Assembly (NCBI RefSeq): GCF_039634365.2
Contig: NZ_CP155079.2
Coordinates: 3,224,001-3,288,000, forward strand
From: Mucilaginibacter sp. PAMB04168
GTDB lineage: Bacteria; Bacteroidota; Bacteroidia; Sphingobacteriales; Sphingobacteriaceae
DNA length: 64,000 nt
Reading direction: 5' to 3'
A program made the translations under genes and the position numbers. How positions within the stretch are numbered: position 1 is the stretch's first letter; each line of letters opens with the position of its first letter. Below the pieces are notes generated by a model. It was given only the letters and a program-made list of their open reading frames with translations, was not told the DNA's origin and did no database searches. Below, piece after piece: positions 2,420 through 63,497 of this stretch.

Positions 2420-4786
2420 TTAGAATCTTCTTAAAAAGGATTTCATCGTACTGCCAGAAGCGTACTCGGTAGCATATTTACCGTAACCGTAGCTCGAGTA
2501 TCCCTGATTATAAGTATAGCTGTACTTATCTTTACGTATACCATTGAATATGATATTCATTTTAGGCACCTGCTGCTGTTTGAACAGTTTTTCGGTAACG
2601 TCTAATTCCCATGACTTGGTCAAACCCTGCCTGATTACATAAAGGGTAACATCACTAACACGCGATAATACCATGGCGTCGGTAACAATATTTATGGGTG
2701 GAGTATCCAATAAAATATCATCGTAACTACTGCGCAGTTCATCCAATAACACATCTATCTGCTCTTGCTCCAGCATTTCTGAAGGATTAAAGGTCGATGT
2801 TCCGGCAGTTATGACAAACAGGTTGTCATCATAATTTGAGGGCTGGATAATTTCATCAACACTCGCAGTTCCATTAATATAGTCGCTTAAGCCCTTGTGG
2901 TTAACAGCCAGTTTAAAGTTTTTATATATCTGAGGCTTACGTAAATCGAGCTCCAGTATAATAGTTTTACGGCCCGACGCAGCCAAGGTGGCGCCCAAGT
3001 TACTGGTTACAAAGCTTTTACCTTCATTTGCAATACTTGAAGTAAGCATGGTAACCCTGCCTCTTTGCCGGGTGGCGTGCGCAAAATGAAGATTTGTTCT
3101 TAACAGCCTAAACTGTTCGCCAATTACAAAGTTATCGTCTTTGCCGCCAATAACCATAGCTTGCTTACCCTCATGAAAAACAAGCTCACCTAAAACAGGC
3201 ACCGTTGTTTTACTCGCAATATCATCGCGGGTGTTTATCCGATCATTTAAACTATCGCGGCAATAAATTACACCAAGGGGTATAAAGATGCCCAGCATAA
3301 ACGCAATGATATAAATGATGCGTTTGCTTGATGACACTACGTAATTGTAATCAATTAACCGGCTATCATTAATAGTGGATGCATAACTCAGCGCCGCTTC
3401 CTCACGTTTTTGCAGCAGGTATACGTATAAGTTTTCCTTGTTGGTTTGCTGGCGCTTAATGTTAATAAACTGGCGCTCTTGCCCCGGAATATTCTTTATA
3501 GACGACTCAAAGCGATTGCTGTTTGATAAAAGTTGACGCTGGCTTGCCTTTAAAGATGCCTTTATCCCTGAAATGTTGTTTAGGATTGACGACTTGGTTG
3601 AGGCAATTTGTTTATCTACGGCTTCAAAAATAGGATTACGTTCAGGTGTTGTAGCCAGCATTTTATCGCGCTGTACTTGCAAATCCATTAACTGGCGTAT
3701 CAAGCCACTCAAACCCGGATCAGATATACCGATAGTGGCAGGCGCGCTGTTTACGCTCATTGATGATTTTACGTAGCGTTCAACGCCACCTATAATGTCA
3801 AGCTGTAAGGCAATTTCATTTAGTTGTGTATCGTTATTTTTTACGTTATCTAAATAGAGCTTAGCTTCTGATGATACATCAATTAAGCCTTTGTCACTCC
3901 TGAATCCTTCAAAGTCTTTCTCAACCGACGAAAGCTCACGTGTAACATCCTTTAGCCTGCCATCTATAAATAATAAAGCATTTTCGGCAGCGCGTTTCTT
4001 CTGCCTAACTGATTGATCATTGTAAGAAGACACTGTGTGGATCAGTATATCTCTTCCTCTTTGCAATACATTGTCTTGTAAAGACAATTCAATAACGGAG
4101 GCCAGCTTATTTAACCGGCTTGATTTAATTTTGTTAACATAACCGTTTATTACCTGCTCGGTGTCTCTAATACCTACAATTATATCTTTACCAATGTATT
4201 TATTAAGATTAGCCGTCTTATTCAGGTGCCATATACCAAACTTGTTTTTGATATTGTCTGTAAATTTAAACGTCTTGTTGCCTCCGATGGAGTTCTTTAA
4301 CACAAACTCGTTCTGATTTTTGATATGTATAGCAAGCGACTTAGCAAACTTATCGCTGGTTTGCTTAGTTACTACTAAATGAACAGGTGTGCTGCTATAA
4401 ATATCTACATCCCTGAACTTTGATGGTTTACTATAAGTTGCATAAAGATTTAAGTCTTTAATTACTCGTGCAATAAGGTTTCTGGACTGCAGTATTTCGC
4501 TCTCGTTGTCGATCACCTTCGATGATTCAAAAACGTCCATTTTTTGCATCATCTTATCAACCGAATTCTGTTCCTTATTTTCCTCAATGAGCAGCTTGGC
4601 TGTTATGGTATAAATAGGATCTGTATACTTGGTATAAAAGAAAGCACAAACCAACGCCAACGCTACACCCAGCACAAATAATGGCCAGTGATAAAAGTAC
4701 TTGTTGAACGTTACCTTAAACGAGTTCGTTTTGGCGCTATCCTGCGTATACTCAAACGGAGCAATAACAATTTTTTCGTTATTCAT
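2420..4786 (-). CDS. Wzc-like exopolysaccharide tyrosine autokinase
   Basis: A 788-residue fusion of a Wzz chain-length domain and a BY-kinase. Membrane helices lie near residues 34-51 and 489-508, with a long, coiled-coil-rich periplasmic part between them that carries the conserved P-rich GNVR-like stretch before the second helix. The kinase shows Walker A (SSIANEGKSF, Lys590), Walker A' (ILELDLRKP, 610-618) and Walker B (ILLDTPP, 691-697). A tail at 755-775 contains about eight tyrosines, the usual autophosphorylation cluster. It would control polymer length and export with the Wza-like protein encoded 9 bases upstream. Kinase and copolymerase are in one chain, the Gram-negative arrangement. 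Confidence 0.95.
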   Translation of the reverse strand: MNNEKIVIAPFEYTQDSAKTNSFKVTFNKYFYHWPLFVLGVALALVCAFFYTKYTDPIYTITAKLLIEENKEQNSVDKMMQKMDVFESSKVIDNESEILQSRNLIARVIKDLNLYATYSKPSKFRDVDIYSSTPVHLVVTKQTSDKFAKSLAIHIKNQNEFVLKNSIGGNKTFKFTDNIKNKFGIWHLNKTANLNKYIGKDIIVGIRDTEQVINGYVNKIKSSRLNKLASVIELSLQDNVLQRGRDILIHTVSSYNDQSVRQKKRAAENALLFIDGRLKDVTRELSSVEKDFEGFRSDKGLIDVSSEAKLYLDNVKNNDTQLNEIALQLDIIGGVERYVKSSMSVNSAPATIGISDPGLSGLIRQLMDLQVQRDKMLATTPERNPIFEAVDKQIASTKSSILNNISGIKASLKASQRQLLSNSNRFESSIKNIPGQERQFINIKRQQTNKENLYVYLLQKREEAALSYASTINDSRLIDYNYVVSSSKRIIYIIAFMLGIFIPLGVIYCRDSLNDRINTRDDIASKTTVPVLGELVFHEGKQAMVIGGKDDNFVIGEQFRLLRTNLHFAHATRQRGRVTMLTSSIANEGKSFVTSNLGATLAASGRKTIILELDLRKPQIYKNFKLAVNHKGLSDYINGTASVDEIIQPSNYDDNLFVITAGTSTFNPSEMLEQEQIDVLLDELRSSYDDILLDTPPINIVTDAMVLSRVSDVTLYVIRQGLTKSWELDVTEKLFKQQQVPKMNIIFNGIRKDKYSYTYNQGYSSYGYGKYATEYASGSTMKSFLRRF

Positions 4787-47958: not shown

Positions 47959-48885
47959 TTATCTTTTTATAATTGCTATAACTTGCTTAAAAGCTTTTTT
48001 AGCCTCCGGTATAGGAAATAATATCCAGTCGTGAATCATATGTTCATACTCATAAAAGTTGATAGTTACCCCTTGCGTATTTGCTAAATCCTTAAACTTA
48101 TGGGCATCGGGATTCAGAATTTCATCCGTACCGGTAAATAAGCTTATTTCGACTAAACCTTTAACCGGCCCATACATAGGGCTCACTAAGTAGTCTTTCA
48201 TATCACGGTCTCCAGCGTGCATACGGCCTAATTGGTCGCCATTGGTTGCCAGATAAGGGTCCCGTTTGTCAACCTCCTTAATTTTCGGATTACTCATTGA
48301 CACATCGAGCCATGGCGATAGCAATACAATATGCCTTGGTTGGGATATTCCGTCGTACAGGAGCTTTTGCGCTAATGATAAGGCTAAGTTTCCGCCAGAC
48401 GAATCGCCCATAAAAAAGATATTGCGTGGAGACGCATGATTTAAAAGACTATTATAAAGCTTTTGCGCCATTGCAATACGCTCTTTGTACGTATAATCGG
48501 GCAGCAACGGGTAATCGGGTGCGGTAATGGTAAATCCTGTTTCTCTCACAAGTTGAGCCAGCATACGCCAGTGATACAGCGTAAAATTGATAACATAAGC
48601 TCCACCATGAAAAAACAAGATATATTTATCTGCTTTATTTTTTTTCGGGCTGAGGGTATAAACTTTTCGTCCGTCAATTTCTGTAATTTTTAAATCAATA
48701 TCTTTCAAAGTGCTTTTAGGCGGGTCAGGCATATTTATCTTATGCAAGCGATTGCTGGAGAAAACATCAGTCGTTTTGCTAAGCATGCCTTTTATGTTTA
48801 AGGCTCTTAAAATAAACCGCAATAATCTGCTCTGAATACTTTGCCCTTTATGATAATATTCTTGTTGGCTTTTTGAGTTATTCAT
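47959..48885 (-). CDS. Alpha/beta-hydrolase, hormone-sensitive-lipase group
   Basis: 308 residues, no signal peptide. FFHGGAYVIN gives the HGG(A/G) oxyanion loop and GDSSGGNLA the nucleophile Ser; LFTGTDEILNPDAH and YEHMIHDW provide the Asp and His. This is the HSL/esterase IV group, which cleaves short-chain esters. The substrate is unknown. It converges with the lipoprotein gene; a perfect 18-bp palindrome at 48902-48919 lies just upstream of its start. It is a smaller cytoplasmic relative of the lipoprotein hydrolase at 58024. Confidence 0.87.
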   Translation of the reverse strand: MNNSKSQQEYYHKGQSIQSRLLRFILRALNIKGMLSKTTDVFSSNRLHKINMPDPPKSTLKDIDLKITEIDGRKVYTLSPKKNKADKYILFFHGGAYVINFTLYHWRMLAQLVRETGFTITAPDYPLLPDYTYKERIAMAQKLYNSLLNHASPRNIFFMGDSSGGNLALSLAQKLLYDGISQPRHIVLLSPWLDVSMSNPKIKEVDKRDPYLATNGDQLGRMHAGDRDMKDYLVSPMYGPVKGLVEISLFTGTDEILNPDAHKFKDLANTQGVTINFYEYEHMIHDWILFPIPEAKKAFKQVIAIIKR

Positions 48886-53275: not shown

Positions 53276-53839
53276 ATGTTAAGTACTATAACACCCGCAT
53301 CAGGCCGCCTGTTAATTTCTGAACCTTTTATGATGGATCCTAATTTTAAGCGTTCGGTTATACTGCTGGCTGAACATTCCGAAGAAGGCACATTGGGTTA
53401 TGTACTTAACCAGCTCAGTGAGTATAAACTTGGGGATGTGTTACCTGATGTTGCTTACTCAGAAATGCCGGTTTATGTAGGCGGACCAGTGGCCAACAAC
53501 ACCCTGCACTTTATACACCGTTGCCCCGATAAAATTGAAGGCGGCGTTGAAATTTGGGACGGCATATATTGGGGTGGAAGCTTTGAACAGGTGAAGGAAC
53601 TGCTCTCCACCTACCAAATTACTGAAGATGAGATTAAGTTTTTTGCCGGCTACTCGGGCTGGACAACCGGCCAGCTAGACGCTGAGATACTGGAAGACAC
53701 CTGGATTGTGGCTAATAAATTTAACCCTGAAATTCTTTTTACGCATGATGAGCAAAATTTATGGCGCGAGGTAGTAATAAGCCTGGGACAGCGCTATGCC
53801 CACATCGCTAATTTTCCGGAGAACCCAACACTGAACTAA
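53276..53839 (+). CDS. YqgE/AlgH-family protein
   Basis: 187 residues. LLISEPFMMDPNFKRSVILL, followed by HSEEGTLGYVLNQ, VYVGGPV and FAGYSGWTTGQLDAEI, define the DUF179/YqgE family. Despite the AlgH name its biochemical role is not settled. It is a cytoplasmic single-domain protein, transcribed alone and closed by a strong terminator. Confidence 0.9.
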   Translation: MLSTITPASGRLLISEPFMMDPNFKRSVILLAEHSEEGTLGYVLNQLSEYKLGDVLPDVAYSEMPVYVGGPVANNTLHFIHRCPDKIEGGVEIWDGIYWGGSFEQVKELLSTYQITEDEIKFFAGYSGWTTGQLDAEILEDTWIVANKFNPEILFTHDEQNLWREVVISLGQRYAHIANFPENPTLN

Positions 53840-53870: not shown

Positions 53871-53919
53871 TAAAAAAAGGGCCTTCTCAGAATAAAGAAG
53901 GGCCCTTTTTATTTTAATA
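53871..53919. terminator. Bidirectional terminator after the YqgE gene
   Basis: AAAAAGGGCCTTCT pairs with AGAAGGGCCCTTTTT with one bulged G and a CAGAATAA loop, followed by TATTTTA. It sits between the YqgE gene and the convergent anti-sigma/protease gene (ends at 53930). Confidence 0.8.
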
Positions 53920-53929
53920 AACGATGTAA

Positions 53930-55033
53930 TTAATTGTACACCTTCACCATAAATACATAATCCTTAAGCTTTTTAAACTGCTGAGACTGGTTTAAGCCAG
54001 TTAAACTGCTCTTGCTGTTTAAGGTTATCTTATTGTTAGTAGAATCTTTAGTTATTTCGCGGGCAATTTTAAACAGGTATTTTGATTTAATGGCGTAAGC
54101 AGCGCCTTCCACCTGGGTTTGCTTACCGCTTATGATACCTATAATATTCCCTTTTCCATCAAGCACTGGGCCGCCGCTGTTGCCCGGATTAACCGGCAAT
54201 GAAACCTGGTAAGCCACTGTATCACCATTTAAGCCATTTGCAGAGCTTAAATAGCCACGGCCTAACACCAATGAGTCGCCAGGAAAACCAACGGTATAAA
54301 GGTCTTCTCCTACATCACTCCGGCCCTTGCGAAAATTATAGGGTATGTTGCCTAAGGCAGTAAAAGCCGAATCATCGATTTTAAGTACAGCTATATCGTA
54401 TGCTGGTTCAGTAAAAATTAGCTTTGTATGATAAGAATCGCCGGCTGAATTTTGAACATATACAGAGTCGGCATTGCGGATCACATGGAAATTGGTAATA
54501 ATGTAGCCGTTTGATGTTAAAGCAAAACCCGAACCCGCAAAGGTACCTGCACTAACCACCCGCTTACCCGATTTAATATCATGCAGTAAGGCTTTATTGC
54601 TGCGCTCAGCATTTTCGGCTGTGCGCTTTATGCTTTGCATTTCGCGACGCAGGGCTGTGAAATTGGTAGTTGGCTTATTAAAATAACCGCTCAGGTAGAG
54701 TGTGCTTAAAATTGCAAATATAGCGATAGAGGCAGCCACCGATATTTTTGAATGATGGTTGCGCCACATTTTAACCACCCAGTTTGGATGAACAGTTAAC
54801 TCTTCAGTAAGCGTATGCACATCAATTTCGTGGTGTATAGCGTTTAATCGTTTTTCCAGCTCAACACGCTCGCCATATTGCTTAATCAAACCAACAAAGT
54901 GGGCATGATCAGTAATACGGCTATCAACGGTGGCATTTTCGCGACGCAAAGCTTCAAAACGTTGCTTTTCCTCGTCGTTCAGCTCACCGTTAAGGTACCG
55001 CTCTATTAATTCTGTTAGTTGTAACTCACTCAT
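53930..55033 (-). CDS. Anti-sigma factor fused to a trypsin-like protease
   Basis: 367 residues. Residues 1-95 (LIERYLNGELNDEEKQRFE) resemble the cytoplasmic anti-sigma domain of FecR-like regulators. A single membrane helix (about 97-117) puts the rest in the periplasm. After a charged, probably coiled linker (120-150), a chymotrypsin-fold HtrA-like protease covers 155-330, with the triad His183 (NFHVIRNA), Asp213 (YDIAVLKID) and Ser286 (VNPGNSGGPV). No PDZ domain follows. It is encoded 10 bases after the sigma gene, so it is probably its membrane-bound regulator. Joining anti-sigma factor and site-1-like protease in one chain is unusual; the roles are inferred. Confidence 0.82.
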   Translation of the reverse strand: MSELQLTELIERYLNGELNDEEKQRFEALRRENATVDSRITDHAHFVGLIKQYGERVELEKRLNAIHHEIDVHTLTEELTVHPNWVVKMWRNHHSKISVAASIAIFAILSTLYLSGYFNKPTTNFTALRREMQSIKRTAENAERSNKALLHDIKSGKRVVSAGTFAGSGFALTSNGYIITNFHVIRNADSVYVQNSAGDSYHTKLIFTEPAYDIAVLKIDDSAFTALGNIPYNFRKGRSDVGEDLYTVGFPGDSLVLGRGYLSSANGLNGDTVAYQVSLPVNPGNSGGPVLDGKGNIIGIISGKQTQVEGAAYAIKSKYLFKIAREITKDSTNNKITLNSKSSLTGLNQSQQFKKLKDYVFMVKVYN

Positions 55034-55043
55034 CGTATTACGC

Positions 55044-55613
55044 TTATGTTTGCTGAAAAAATAACTTTTTCAGCCGTTGCAGGCATTTGTATTTTTGAGT
55101 TTTGGCGTTATCTGCATTTGTATATCCAAACCTTTCACATATATCCTGCATGGAATGGTTGTGAATGTAAAAATCTTCAATAATAGTTTTACACGGCTCA
55201 CCTAACAGCTTGAGTGCACCTTCCATCTTGGCAAACTGAATATCCTTTTCGGTATGCAGTTCGCTGTCATCTTCCATCACCAGGTGCTCCTGAAAATCTT
55301 TTATATCACCACCGTAACGGCTCATTTGGTGTAACCTTTTAAGCCAAAGTTTACGACAAACCGAGTATAAAAAGGTTTTCAATTTGCTGCTAAGCTCAAA
55401 TTTTCCGCTTTTAACTTTGTTATAAAGAACAATGATGGCCTCCTGATAAACATCTTTTGCATCATCGGCCGTGCCATTATTATTAATGATTAGCTGCAAC
55501 ACCATCGGGAAATAAGCCACGTACAGTCGTTTCAAGATAGTTTCTGAATTGTTTAAGATTCCGAACACTACTTCACTATCTGTTGGTGCTGAACTATTTA
55601 ACGCTTTACTCAC
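55044..55613 (-). CDS. ECF-type RNA polymerase sigma factor
   Basis: 189 residues, sigma-70 region 2 (VYQEAIIVLYNKVKSG, then FLYSVCRKLWLKRL) and region 4 (MQDICERFGYTNADNAKTQK, YKCLQRLKKLF). The start is a GTG at 55613, just 2 bases after a GTATTAAA element of its own promoter, so the true start could be the GTG at 55568 (residue 16), which also fits better where region 2 begins. The next gene encodes an anti-sigma/protease fusion. The same promoter pattern occurs before two lipoprotein genes on the other strand. Confidence 0.88.
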   Translation of the reverse strand: MSKALNSSAPTDSEVVFGILNNSETILKRLYVAYFPMVLQLIINNNGTADDAKDVYQEAIIVLYNKVKSGKFELSSKLKTFLYSVCRKLWLKRLHQMSRYGGDIKDFQEHLVMEDDSELHTEKDIQFAKMEGALKLLGEPCKTIIEDFYIHNHSMQDICERFGYTNADNAKTQKYKCLQRLKKLFFQQT

Positions 55614-55615
55614 TA

Positions 55616-55645
55616 TTTAATACTGTTTATGCGAAATTGTAACCC
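55616..55645 (-). promoter_or_regulatory. ECF-type promoter of the sigma gene
   Basis: Minus strand: GGGTTAC (55645-55639), 15 bases, GTATTAAA (55623-55616). Both blocks recur with the same spacing at 56324-56353. It suggests positive autoregulation. No vegetative TAnnTTTG element was seen here. Confidence 0.65.
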
Positions 55646-55684
55646 ATTATTGATAAAAAAAAATAATTAAGCAAATAAAATTAT

Positions 55685-55715
55685 GGGTTACCTTTCTTGC
55701 ACAGCCCGGATTAAG
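55685..55715 (+). promoter_or_regulatory. ECF-type promoter of the first lipoprotein gene
   Basis: GGGTTAC (55685-55691), 18 bases, then ATTAAG (55710-55715). The second block is one base further than in the other two promoters. The extended first block GGGTTACCTTT is shared with 56324. It is back to back with the sigma-gene promoter in the 125-base divergent region. Confidence 0.6.
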
Positions 55716-55738
55716 GGTAAATAAAAACAACTACAACT

Positions 55739-55924
55739 ATGAAGAACACAATGAAAGCTTTGGGCTTAGCAGTGGTAATTGCAGCCTTAACCTCATGCCA
55801 AAGCGGTACACCTAAAGGCACTACCGATTCGGTTGCAAACCATCCAAGTGATACTGGTACTTCTGTCACCGTTGATACCATGAGCACAAGTCCGGATACT
55901 GCTACTACTGATTCAACCAAATAA
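55739..55924 (+). CDS. Small Thr/Ser/Asp-rich lipoprotein
   Basis: 61 residues. A signal peptide with lipobox (ALTSC, Cys20) leads to a mature chain of only about 40 residues, mostly Thr, Ser, Asp and Pro (DTGTSVTVDTMSTSPDTATT). It is a low-complexity, probably unfolded surface or periplasmic tail. Database names such as coproporphyrinogen oxidase are sometimes put on such proteins; nothing here supports an enzyme. It is divergent from the sigma gene and has an ECF-type promoter. Confidence 0.7.
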   Translation: MKNTMKALGLAVVIAALTSCQSGTPKGTTDSVANHPSDTGTSVTVDTMSTSPDTATTDSTK

Positions 55925-55990
55925 ACACGTGAAATCTTGAAGATACTCACTATTTGAGAATCTTGCTAACACAACTCAAATTTTATACCC

Positions 55991-56269
55991 ATGAAAAAAA
56001 ATTTAAAAATTGTATTGGCCCTGGTAGCTTTGGCCAATATGCTGGTAGCTTGCGATGCAAATGGCAACAAAAATACCGGCGACACAACATTGGTTGATTC
56101 GTCATCATCTGCACAATCCACCACCGACACAACTTACAAGGTCGATTCAACGAAAGTTGACACATCTGCTCTTGGCGATTCGTCGGCAACTGCAGCAGCA
56201 GGTGATACTGTTAGTAAAACCATCACCAAAAAAACTGTTGTTAAAAAAACAGTAAGTAAAAAGCAGTAA
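55991..56269 (+). CDS. Small Thr/Ser/Asp-rich lipoprotein with basic tail
   Basis: 92 residues; lipobox LVAC, Cys21. The mature part begins with DANGNKNTGDTT, continues with Ser/Thr/Asp repeats (TTDTTYKVDSTKVDTSALGD) and ends in a strongly basic TKKTVVKKTVSKKQ. A basic end could bind peptidoglycan, LPS or nucleic acid; this is inferred. No ECF-type motif precedes it, so it is probably read through from 55739, 66 bases upstream. Confidence 0.7.
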   Translation: MKKNLKIVLALVALANMLVACDANGNKNTGDTTLVDSSSSAQSTTDTTYKVDSTKVDTSALGDSSATAAAGDTVSKTITKKTVVKKTVSKKQ

Positions 56270-56323
56270 TACTGAGGGTTTTATAGCGGTTGAAAAACTT
56301 TTTTAATTTTTTTTCAATTAAGC

Positions 56324-56353
56324 GGGTTACCTTTTGCAATTACCGGTATTAAA
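56324..56353 (+). promoter_or_regulatory. ECF-type promoter of the third lipoprotein gene
   Basis: GGGTTAC (56324-56330), 15 bases, GTATTAAA (56346-56353), 35 bases before the ATG at 56389. It has the same blocks and spacing as the sigma gene's own promoter. Confidence 0.68.
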
Positions 56354-56388
56354 GAGAAACTATTAATCACTTATTAAAAGAAATTAAA

Positions 56389-56589
56389 ATGAAAAATGCA
56401 TTCAAATTCGGCTTTTTAGCCCTTGCTATCTCTGTATCAATGGTTGCTTGTAAAGGTTCTGGTTCAGGTTCATCTGCTGATTCTGATACTACTGCTGCTG
56501 CTGTTGACACAACTGTAAAAGTTGATTCAACTGTTACTGATACTGCTGCTGTTGATACTGCTGCTGCCGATACTACTAAAAAAATGTAA
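56389..56589 (+). CDS. Small Asp/Thr/Ala-repeat lipoprotein
   Basis: 66 residues; lipobox MVAC, Cys21, with a GSGSGSS linker. The rest is a degenerate repeat of DTAA/DTT units (DTTAAAVDTTVKVDSTVTD), mirrored in the DNA as repeats of GATACTGCTGCT. It is probably an unstructured lipid-anchored peptide. Its own ECF-type promoter makes it the best-supported target of the neighbouring sigma factor. Confidence 0.72.
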   Translation: MKNAFKFGFLALAISVSMVACKGSGSGSSADSDTTAAAVDTTVKVDSTVTDTAAVDTAAADTTKKM

Positions 56590-56596
56590 TTTCTGC

Positions 56597-56653
56597 TTTA
56601 AGCAAATAAAAAACCCCAGTGCATTAAGCATTGGGGTTTTTTATTTGCTTAAA
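56597..56653. terminator. Very long bidirectional terminator hairpin
   Basis: The arms, about 26 bases each (56597-56622 and 56628-56653), are complementary apart from one G-T pair, with a 5-base ATTAA loop. The A/T-rich outer parts provide T-runs for the + lipoprotein and the convergent - lipoprotein. Confidence 0.85.
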
Positions 56654-56748: not shown

Positions 56749-57063
56749 TTATTTCTTTGTGGAATCTTTTTTTGCTGTGTCGGTTGCGGCAACCGGCGTA
56801 GGTGCTGCAGCTGTTGGTGCAGCCATAGTAGTGCGCGCACTAGGCTTGCCTTTAGGGATGGTCATACCACCTGAGCCGGAGTAATCTAACAAAGTAGCTC
56901 CGCCTGTGCTGGTTACTGTTTTAGAGGTATCTTTGTTCGACACATCGTAGTTATTTATATCCTTTACCGAGTCAGCAGCATCTTTGCTGGCATTGCCGAC
57001 GTTGCACGCTTCGAACACAGAAACGCTGCCGGCAAGCATCATAAATAAAATTACTTTTTTCAT
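56749..57063 (-). CDS. Small Ala/Thr/Pro-rich lipoprotein
   Basis: 104 residues from the ATG at 57063; lipobox FEAC, Cys20. The mature protein has NASKDAADSVKD, then a TTMAAPTAAAPTPVAATDTA tail with basic end. Composition is similar to the three lipoproteins on the other strand, but I see no GGGTTAC promoter before it. It could belong to the same envelope set under another promoter. No function is known. Confidence 0.65.
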   Translation of the reverse strand: MKKVILFMMLAGSVSVFEACNVGNASKDAADSVKDINNYDVSNKDTSKTVTSTGGATLLDYSGSGGMTIPKGKPSARTTMAAPTAAAPTPVAATDTAKKDSTKK

Positions 57064-57169
57064 CAATATGCTTGTTGTAGTGATTGTTTAACAGCTTTAA
57101 AAGCTGAATGTTGTTTTCTGCTGCCAATATACAAAGATGCCTTCGCTTATGCGGCTTAACAGTAACAAA

Positions 57170-62597: not shown

Positions 62598-63497
62598 CTA
62601 TTTAATTACAAAGTTGCTTAAAATTGCTAATGTCTGTTCTTTAGTCAACGGCTCATCAAATGATTCGGTTGCTGCTTTTACAGTGACACCAGAAATAGTG
62701 GTTAAATCTTTTCCTCCTTGTGACACGTTAGCTTCATTTTGATAAATTAAGTTAACTACTGACGGAGCTACAGAAATTCCACTTGCTGTTGTACCATCCT
62801 GAGTAACCCATGGACGGAAAGTTGTTGGTACACCTGAGGGACGCAACATACGTAGACGACGCAGGTATGAAGCATGACGCGCTTCAACAGAATGGATGTC
62901 TAAAGCTGCAGTTAAAACTACCGCGTTACCTTTCAAAAATCCAGCCTGGCCTTTGTAAGCTCTCACACCGGTATCCTCAAAAGCTTGCGCAACCGCTAAA
63001 AACACGTCGTAATCAGTAAACACTGAAGAAAACGGACCCGTACCTGCTGTGCTTTTTCCGCCAGAGTAGTCAAAAAACGCGTTTGTGTTACCAACAAGAA
63101 TCGGGTCGGTTACACGTGCAGCATTTTCTGGGCTGATGGCTGTTTTCAACTGATCTTTAAGAAACTTAACGTGATTATTTTCGTCGTTTCTAATTAGCGT
63201 AATCGCATCACGCGCTGTACCAGCCGGAACAATGTTTCTTGCTATTGCGGTGTTGTAAAAGCAAGCCTCTGTTAACTCAGCAGTTAAGGCAAAGTTTAAT
63301 ACATCGGTTACTGATGGAATAGCTGTTTGGCCATAGGCTTTTTTGAACAGTGTACTAAAAGCAAATGGCAAAGCAGCAACCGCTACTTTTGAACCAAAGC
63401 TTGTAATATTTCTTATGGCAGCTCTGCGCGGACTAATTCTGTCGGCAAATTCTGGGTCGGCTGCTTGTATCTCGTTAAATAAATTTAAAAAATCCAT
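62598..63497 (-). CDS. Ferritin-like domain protein
   Basis: 299 residues. Residues 22-55 resemble a twin-Arg-like export signal (SPRRAAIRNI, then VAVAALPFAFSTLF). The ferritin-like four-helix core (about 60-225) has possible iron ligands in LTAELTEACFY, NDENNHVKFL, AFEDTGVRAY and HSVEARHASYL. The last 70 residues carry a loop and tail of unclear role. It may bind a di-metal centre in the periplasm. A second gene of the same family lies 26 bases upstream, so they form a tandem pair. Confidence 0.85.
   Translation of the reverse strand: MDFLNLFNEIQAADPEFADRISPRRAAIRNITSFGSKVAVAALPFAFSTLFKKAYGQTAIPSVTDVLNFALTAELTEACFYNTAIARNIVPAGTARDAITLIRNDENNHVKFLKDQLKTAISPENAARVTDPILVGNTNAFFDYSGGKSTAGTGPFSSVFTDYDVFLAVAQAFEDTGVRAYKGQAGFLKGNAVVLTAALDIHSVEARHASYLRRLRMLRPSGVPTTFRPWVTQDGTTASGISVAPSVVNLIYQNEANVSQGGKDLTTISGVTVKAATESFDEPLTKEQTLAILSNFVIK

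Follow-up and report, generated by a model that had tools for sequence, protein, structure and literature searches.

Extracytoplasmic function (ECF) σ factors are already known to activate their own promoters. In the AlgU-MucA-AlgW system of Pseudomonas aeruginosa, MucA and AlgW are separate proteins. Escherichia coli RseA and DegS, which are described as having roles in the RpoE pathway, are separate proteins as well (PMC8103513). The control of ECF σ factors in Bacteroidota is poorly understood; in Bacteroidetes, class I anti-σ domains are reported close to only 6% of ECF genes, whereas the average across phyla is 32% (PMC7406223). The locus described here lies in a 64,000-nucleotide stretch (hereafter, the window) of Mucilaginibacter sp. 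PAMB04168, contig NZ_CP155079.2, positions 3,224,001 to 3,288,000, and its nearest named relatives are found in Mucilaginibacter. It comprises an ECF σ factor gene, a partner gene that follows it, and three divergent genes for small lipoproteins (Table 1). An earlier note, made from the window sequence, proposed that the σ factor activates its own gene and two lipoprotein genes through a shared promoter, GGGTTAC followed by a second block. The comparisons below make it quite probable that these genes form a self-contained, autoregulated ECF module, composed of the σ factor, a membrane inhibitor/protease, and a lipoprotein output. The promoter code and its targets are well supported by comparative sequence analysis; we infer that the partner inhibits the σ factor, that proteolysis ends this inhibition, and that the lipoproteins serve as a coat.

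The σ factor belongs to the σ70 family and, like group IV (ECF) factors, has only regions 2 and 4; it matches TIGR02937 (sigma70-ECF) at residues 27–183 with 62.6 bits (cutoff 42.9) and Sigma70_r2 with 26.8 bits (cutoff 24). The system may correspond to a numbered ECF group of the 2021 reclassification.

A Probable Two-Block Promoter Conserved in Sequence and Spacing

Within the window alone, the motif exceeds chance only modestly, which is suggestive only. GGGTTAC by itself is at chance level (7 occurrences vs a mean of 6.82 in shuffled sequences); GGGTTAC-N10-22-TTAA has 3 matches vs a shuffle mean of 1.18, and 12 of 100 shuffles reach 3; the complete motif, with two mismatches allowed, also has 3 matches, the third of them at 48043 with two mismatches, vs a shuffle mean of 0.79, and 3 of 100 shuffles reach 3. 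The sites at the locus were found where the earlier note had placed them: GGGTTAC-N15 and the second block before the σ gene and lipoprotein gene 3, and GGGTTAC with ATTAA 18 bases on before lipoprotein gene 1. Its inventory needs amendment elsewhere. Of the GGGTTAC words said to have no second block, the minus-strand word is real but lies at 62803–62809, not 62793–62799; two more GGGTTAC words, at 3051 and 17721, had been missed. Sites do precede two divergent lipoprotein genes, as claimed, but the genes number three; the middle one (gene 2) has no site of its own in a scan of the window for GGGTTAC words and is perhaps cotranscribed with gene 1. Why is the site of gene 1 oddly spaced? Two near relatives, L004 and L006, have GGGTTAC-N15-GGATTAA, with normal spacing, as the divergent site adjacent to the σ gene; thus, the spacing in the window looks like drift.

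Because the window statistics are weak, decisive proof has to come from phylogenetic conservation. Orthologous loci were chosen by σ protein similarity, without reference to the motif, as the best 80 of 234 relatives. Both blocks precede the σ gene in every one of them, spaced by 15 bases in 79 loci and by 16 in one; across the 79 N15 loci, no block position varies (14 of 14 invariant), unlike most positions of the spacer. Such strict conservation of blocks and spacing supports the proposed autoregulation. In 76 of the 80 loci, divergent sites, mostly GGGTTACCTTTT-N10-GTATTAA or near variants, stand upstream of one to five predicted small proteins with an early Cys, 150 in total; the four loci without a divergent site are L013 (288 bases of upstream sequence only), L019, L042, and L061. 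Outside the genus, the motif was found for 17 of 18 orthologues that have 42–69% identity and a partner gene: 14 carry it exactly and three with a single mismatch, two of the three read by eye; in five relatives at 33–37% identity, which have no partner gene, the motif is absent upstream in all five. About 20 loci, many from Pedobacter (e.g., L062 and L083), contain a second GGGTTAC-N16-GTATTAA oriented towards the σ gene and located 99–103 bases before it, as counted by eye.

The two blocks might instead be bound as an operator by a conventional DNA-binding regulator, with the σ gene merely one of its targets. The divergent sites of the window do form an inverted pair (GTAACCCAT...ATGGGTTAC), but how far apart such sites lie differs greatly from locus to locus (e.g., -69, -145, -202, and -726), and an operator palindrome built on this pair was rejected for that reason. 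Relative to the gene start, moreover, the order and spacing of the two blocks do not change and, as detailed below, the motif tracks the presence of the σ gene; an operator is thus highly improbable.

Distribution of the Motif and the σ Factor

In a genus set of 149 genomes (the window genome and 148 others), 142 have a σ orthologue (E ≤ 1e-40), and 137 of them contain GGGTTACCTTTTN9-12GTATTAA, vs none of the other seven; the backward control is found in none of the 149. In a phylum set of 345 Bacteroidota genomes, 26 of which have the σ factor at E ≤ 1e-30, GGGTTACN14-16GTATTAA occurs in 19 of the 26 σ-positive genomes vs 5 of the 319 σ-negative ones (once in each of the five); Fisher's test gives p ~3e-21, a value that treats genomes as independent and is therefore overstated. 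Together with the sites in 76 of 80 loci, this co-occurrence supports the view that the σ factor controls the tiny Thr/Ser/Asp-rich lipoproteins, as the earlier note had suggested.

Several observations weigh against this reading. One of the seven genus genomes counted as σ-negative, some of which are incomplete, holds an 88% identical gene fragment (G069). The backward control is not clean in the phylum set, matching ~45 of 345 genomes (2 with the σ factor and 43 without). Among the 26 σ-positive phylum genomes, seven have no exact motif; four of the seven are 37–39% relatives, where the search for a partner gene was negative. Finally, in the window genome (5.44 Mb in two contigs), which was searched with three patterns and their backward controls, the counts do not exceed those of the controls: 3 vs 3, 25 vs 19, and 6 vs 6.

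How large, then, is the regulon? In the genome-wide search, a check proposed by the earlier note, the sites at the locus stand out, but the totals do not rise above the control, and a large genome-wide regulon in the window genome was rejected on these counts. The three-pattern search revealed no convincing site elsewhere in this genome; with the off-locus matches judged by sequence and control counts, its regulon appears to be essentially this locus. Relatives carry a few distant sites, some of them before further genes of the same lipoprotein family. Among 150 places listed in 75 genus genomes, 146 are no more than 2.5 kb from the σ gene; of the remaining four listed, three precede the same lipoprotein family (with the gene ~120 bases downstream) and one precedes a small membrane protein. 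In another family, the motif is found off the σ locus, just upstream of a small AMPK1_CBM gene (PF16561; glycogen-binding type), at L192, L201, L202, and L203 (genomes G273, G239, G297, and G181); a search of 15 genomes found four homologues, each with the motif immediately before its gene, and in a fifth genome the motif precedes another AMPK1_CBM protein. The proteins downstream of other distant places (L186, L189, L197, and L198) show no clear pattern; in the relatives, the downstream-gene survey covered the listed off-locus places other than G273:C56 and G099:C36. At L168 (G077) and L198 (G082), the off-locus motif precedes genes for small membrane proteins that resemble each other on visual inspection.

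Start of the σ Gene

The probable GTG start codon of the σ gene lies very close to the promoter-like site. It follows GTATTAA by 2–3 bases in 72 of the 80 loci (46 + 16 + 10, the ten having TTG directly after GTATTAA, GTATTAATTGGTG, and GTG 3 nucleotides later) and by 13–17 bases in the other eight. Since in several of these eight the same GTG-codon context has shifted with the coding sequence and not with the promoter, GTG is probably the real start, and the σ transcript is probably leaderless or nearly so. This would be unusual: in Flavobacterium psychrophilum, where the sigma-A box extends from -12 to -5, leaderless transcripts are reported to make up 5.5% (PMC9723704).

A Predicted Membrane Protein With Anti-σ-Like and Protease Domains

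The gene set of the earlier note, borne out for the σ factor and the lipoproteins, did not include the conserved partner gene. It follows the σ gene directly in all 80 loci (cut by a contig end in L036), and in the window it begins after a gap of 10 bases on the same strand. Residues ~163–330 of the partner form an S1C protease domain (Trypsin_2, 81.5 bits; cutoff 27.6) with the S1C catalytic triad in place: His183, Asp213, and Ser286 are invariant in 25 of 25 aligned partner sequences. The AlphaFold model has a mean predicted local distance difference test score (pLDDT) of 71.5, with the span and the linker poorly modelled; this span, a single one, was read from the sequence. The top fold matches of the protease are the DegS protease domain without its PDZ (E 1e-12) and related HtrA proteases. 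The partner is not a DegS proper: a Pfam profile search found no PDZ domain, and its TIGR02038 score is 67.6 bits vs a cutoff of 422.95.

The N-terminal domain is harder to classify. When residues 1–95 were modelled alone (pLDDT 85.4) and compared by Foldseek with 350,542 PDB chains, the six best rows were MucA and RsiW, whose domains are the cytosolic anti-σ domains of AlgU and SigW; the best anti-σ structural matches, MucA, RsiW, and RslA, all have weak scores. The modelled fold suggests that the domain is likely anti-σ-like. On the other side of the ledger, the Foldseek E values are 0.76 or more; the Z scores are 5.6–6.2 (3.5 for the next unrelated entry), and the tool warns that such matches may reflect only a common helical arrangement; PF13490 scores 18.6 bits, below its cutoff of 22.2, and matches 17 of 45 members at E ≤ 0.1; Hemerythrin matches 6 of 45 members with a better best E (4.9e-5) than PF13490; and a PDB profile search showed no anti-σ factor among its listed matches. 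The zinc-binding (HCC) subclass of class I anti-σ factors is marked by a His-Cys-Cys zinc motif; this subclass, and only this one, is excluded by the absence of Cys from residues 1–95 of the window protein.

RseA-like and DegS-like parts thus appear to be fused in the partner, but what would the protease do? It could be an envelope quality-control enzyme that is tied to the regulon, with the σ factor released by another route, e.g., a separate protease or a conformational change, and the absence of a recognizable PDZ sensor domain from the partner fits this role. The fusion of the protease to an inhibitor-like domain, its invariant triad, and the closeness of its fold to DegS and related HtrA proteases argue against it, and a purely quality-control function is rather unlikely.

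Lipoproteins Packed With Glycosylation Sequons

The lipoprotein set analyzed consists of the 150 predicted proteins that have divergent sites, with within-locus duplicates removed; paralogues and related species are not independent, and the counts that follow are inflated to that extent. The median mature length is 50 residues (range 15–80, the shortest cut by a contig end); the net charge is near zero, and aromatic residues are almost absent (4 in 7411). Nearly every Asp (916 of 958) precedes Ser or Thr, and 86% of these D[ST] pairs precede A, I, L, V, M, or T. The resulting triplet is the O-glycosylation motif described for Bacteroidota, D-S/T-A/L/V/I/M/T in non-cytoplasmic proteins (PMC12871550), and the lipoproteins, which are predicted to be exported, contain 5.26 such sequons each vs 1.08 in shuffles. 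Because this enrichment fits the published motif, the lipoproteins are likely O-glycosylated. Pfam matches to New_glue, Lysis_col, and Mucin are all below cutoff.

Could the Asp-Ser/Thr repeats simply be spacers of low complexity that selection favours for their disorder or balanced charge rather than for O-glycosylation? Short mature chains, near-zero net charge, and repeats that are mostly 5 residues apart would all be expected of spacers, and within-locus paralogues swell the counts. However, Lys accounts for 16% of mature residues yet follows D[ST] only once in 916 pairs, a bias that, like the preference for A, I, L, V, M, or T, concerns the third position of the sequon; and distant relatives use other repeats yet keep D[ST]-type triplets. 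Selection for spacers alone is therefore unlikely.

Other Features of the Locus

Coordinates are collected in Table 1. The terminator-like stem past lipoprotein gene 3 comes from a consensus scan that found 9 such sites in the region vs a mean of 4.7 in shuffles. Another terminator-like stem, at 53882–53901, is present on both strands between the convergent genes 53276–53839 and 53930–55033. A further lipoprotein-like gene with 3 sequons lies at 56749–57066 on the minus strand, with no GGGTTAC word near.

Table 1. Features of the ECF locus, in coordinates of the window.
Feature	Position	Strand	Details
Partner gene	53930..55033	-	367 codons; anti-σ-like ~1–95, membrane span ~97–118, DegS-like S1C protease ~163–330 (predicted)
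ECF σ factor gene	55044..55613	-	GTG start, 189 codons; profile matches TIGR02937, Sigma70_r2
Promoter-like site, σ gene	55617..55645	-	GGGTTAC-N15-GTATTAA; kept in 80/80 loci
Degenerate promoter-like site, lipoprotein gene 1	55685..55714	+	GGGTTAC-N16-GGATTAA (= GGGTTAC-N18-ATTAA)
Small lipoprotein gene 1	55739..55924	+	61 residues; 4 sequons
Small lipoprotein gene 2	55991..56269	+	92 residues; 4 sequons
Promoter-like site, lipoprotein gene 3	56324..56352	+	GGGTTAC-N15-GTATTAA
Small lipoprotein gene 3	56389..56589	+	66 residues; 6 sequons
Terminator-like stem 3' of lipoprotein gene 3	56602..56648	+	consensus scan

A Model for the Module

In the proposed module, the σ factor would recognize GGGTTAC-N15-GTATTAA, transcribe its own operon (the σ and partner genes), and activate the divergent lipoprotein genes. 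The partner, to judge from its predicted fold and gene order, would be a membrane-bound inhibitor with three parts on a single polypeptide: an anti-σ domain in the cytosol, a membrane span, and a DegS-like protease in the periplasm. On an envelope signal, the protease would become active and cleave, close to the membrane, either the chain to which it belongs or a neighbouring one, thereby freeing the σ factor; the outputs, tiny lipoproteins that are probably disordered and carry about five O-glycosylation sequons apiece, would coat or buffer the envelope. A bolder version is possible, if tentative: a single polypeptide would serve as envelope sensor, site-1 protease, and anti-σ factor, a one-component RseA-DegS pathway present in several Bacteroidota families, and with mucin-like, hyper-O-glycosylated mini-lipoproteins as its dedicated output, the glycolipoprotein coat would itself be what the system monitors and maintains.

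The locus provides an exact promoter code that is common to several families. If the inhibitor and the protease are indeed fused, the classical cascade would be shortened, and the dedicated, sequon-packed output offers a testable route to the role of O-glycosylated lipoproteins in Bacteroidota. The σ-promoter pair is perhaps orthogonal and could then be of use for genetic work in this phylum.

Comparison With Known Systems

Literature searches on GGGTTAC, Pedobacter ECF factors, trypsin-like, DegS-linked, or fused anti-σ proteins, and Bacteroidota envelope stress found, within the searches made, no description of this system; its parts have parallels elsewhere. SM6, an ECF regulon of F. psychrophilum, is likewise a Bacteroidota ECF-type promoter set that includes a σ/anti-σ pair, but its box, as reported, differs from the GTATTAA found here (PMC9723704). 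PG1828 family lipoproteins (NF050142) are short, too; unlike them, the window proteins remain under the family cutoff of 50 bits (34.5, 21, and 12.3 for the three), although lipoprotein 3, the best of these at 34.5 bits, aligns over its length. PG1827 of Porphyromonas gingivalis is described as an ECF σ factor (PMC4324044), and we infer, from locus numbers only, that it adjoins PG1828. Bacteroidota O-glycoproteins share the D-S/T-A/L/V/I/M/T motif (PMC12871550), which is unusually dense in the lipoproteins described here, at ~five sequons in ~50 residues.

Further close parallels are RpoE-RseA-DegS and AlgU-MucA-AlgW, with which the locus shares an ECF σ factor, a DegS-like protease, and, by prediction, positive autoregulation and a putative membrane anti-σ factor with a similar N-terminal fold. 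Unlike in these systems, the anti-σ-like domain and the protease reside on one chain, in which no PDZ was found, and the regulon of the window genome amounts to a handful of genes whose output is tiny lipoproteins. What sets this locus apart is the apparent anti-σ/DegS fusion and the narrow lipoprotein output.
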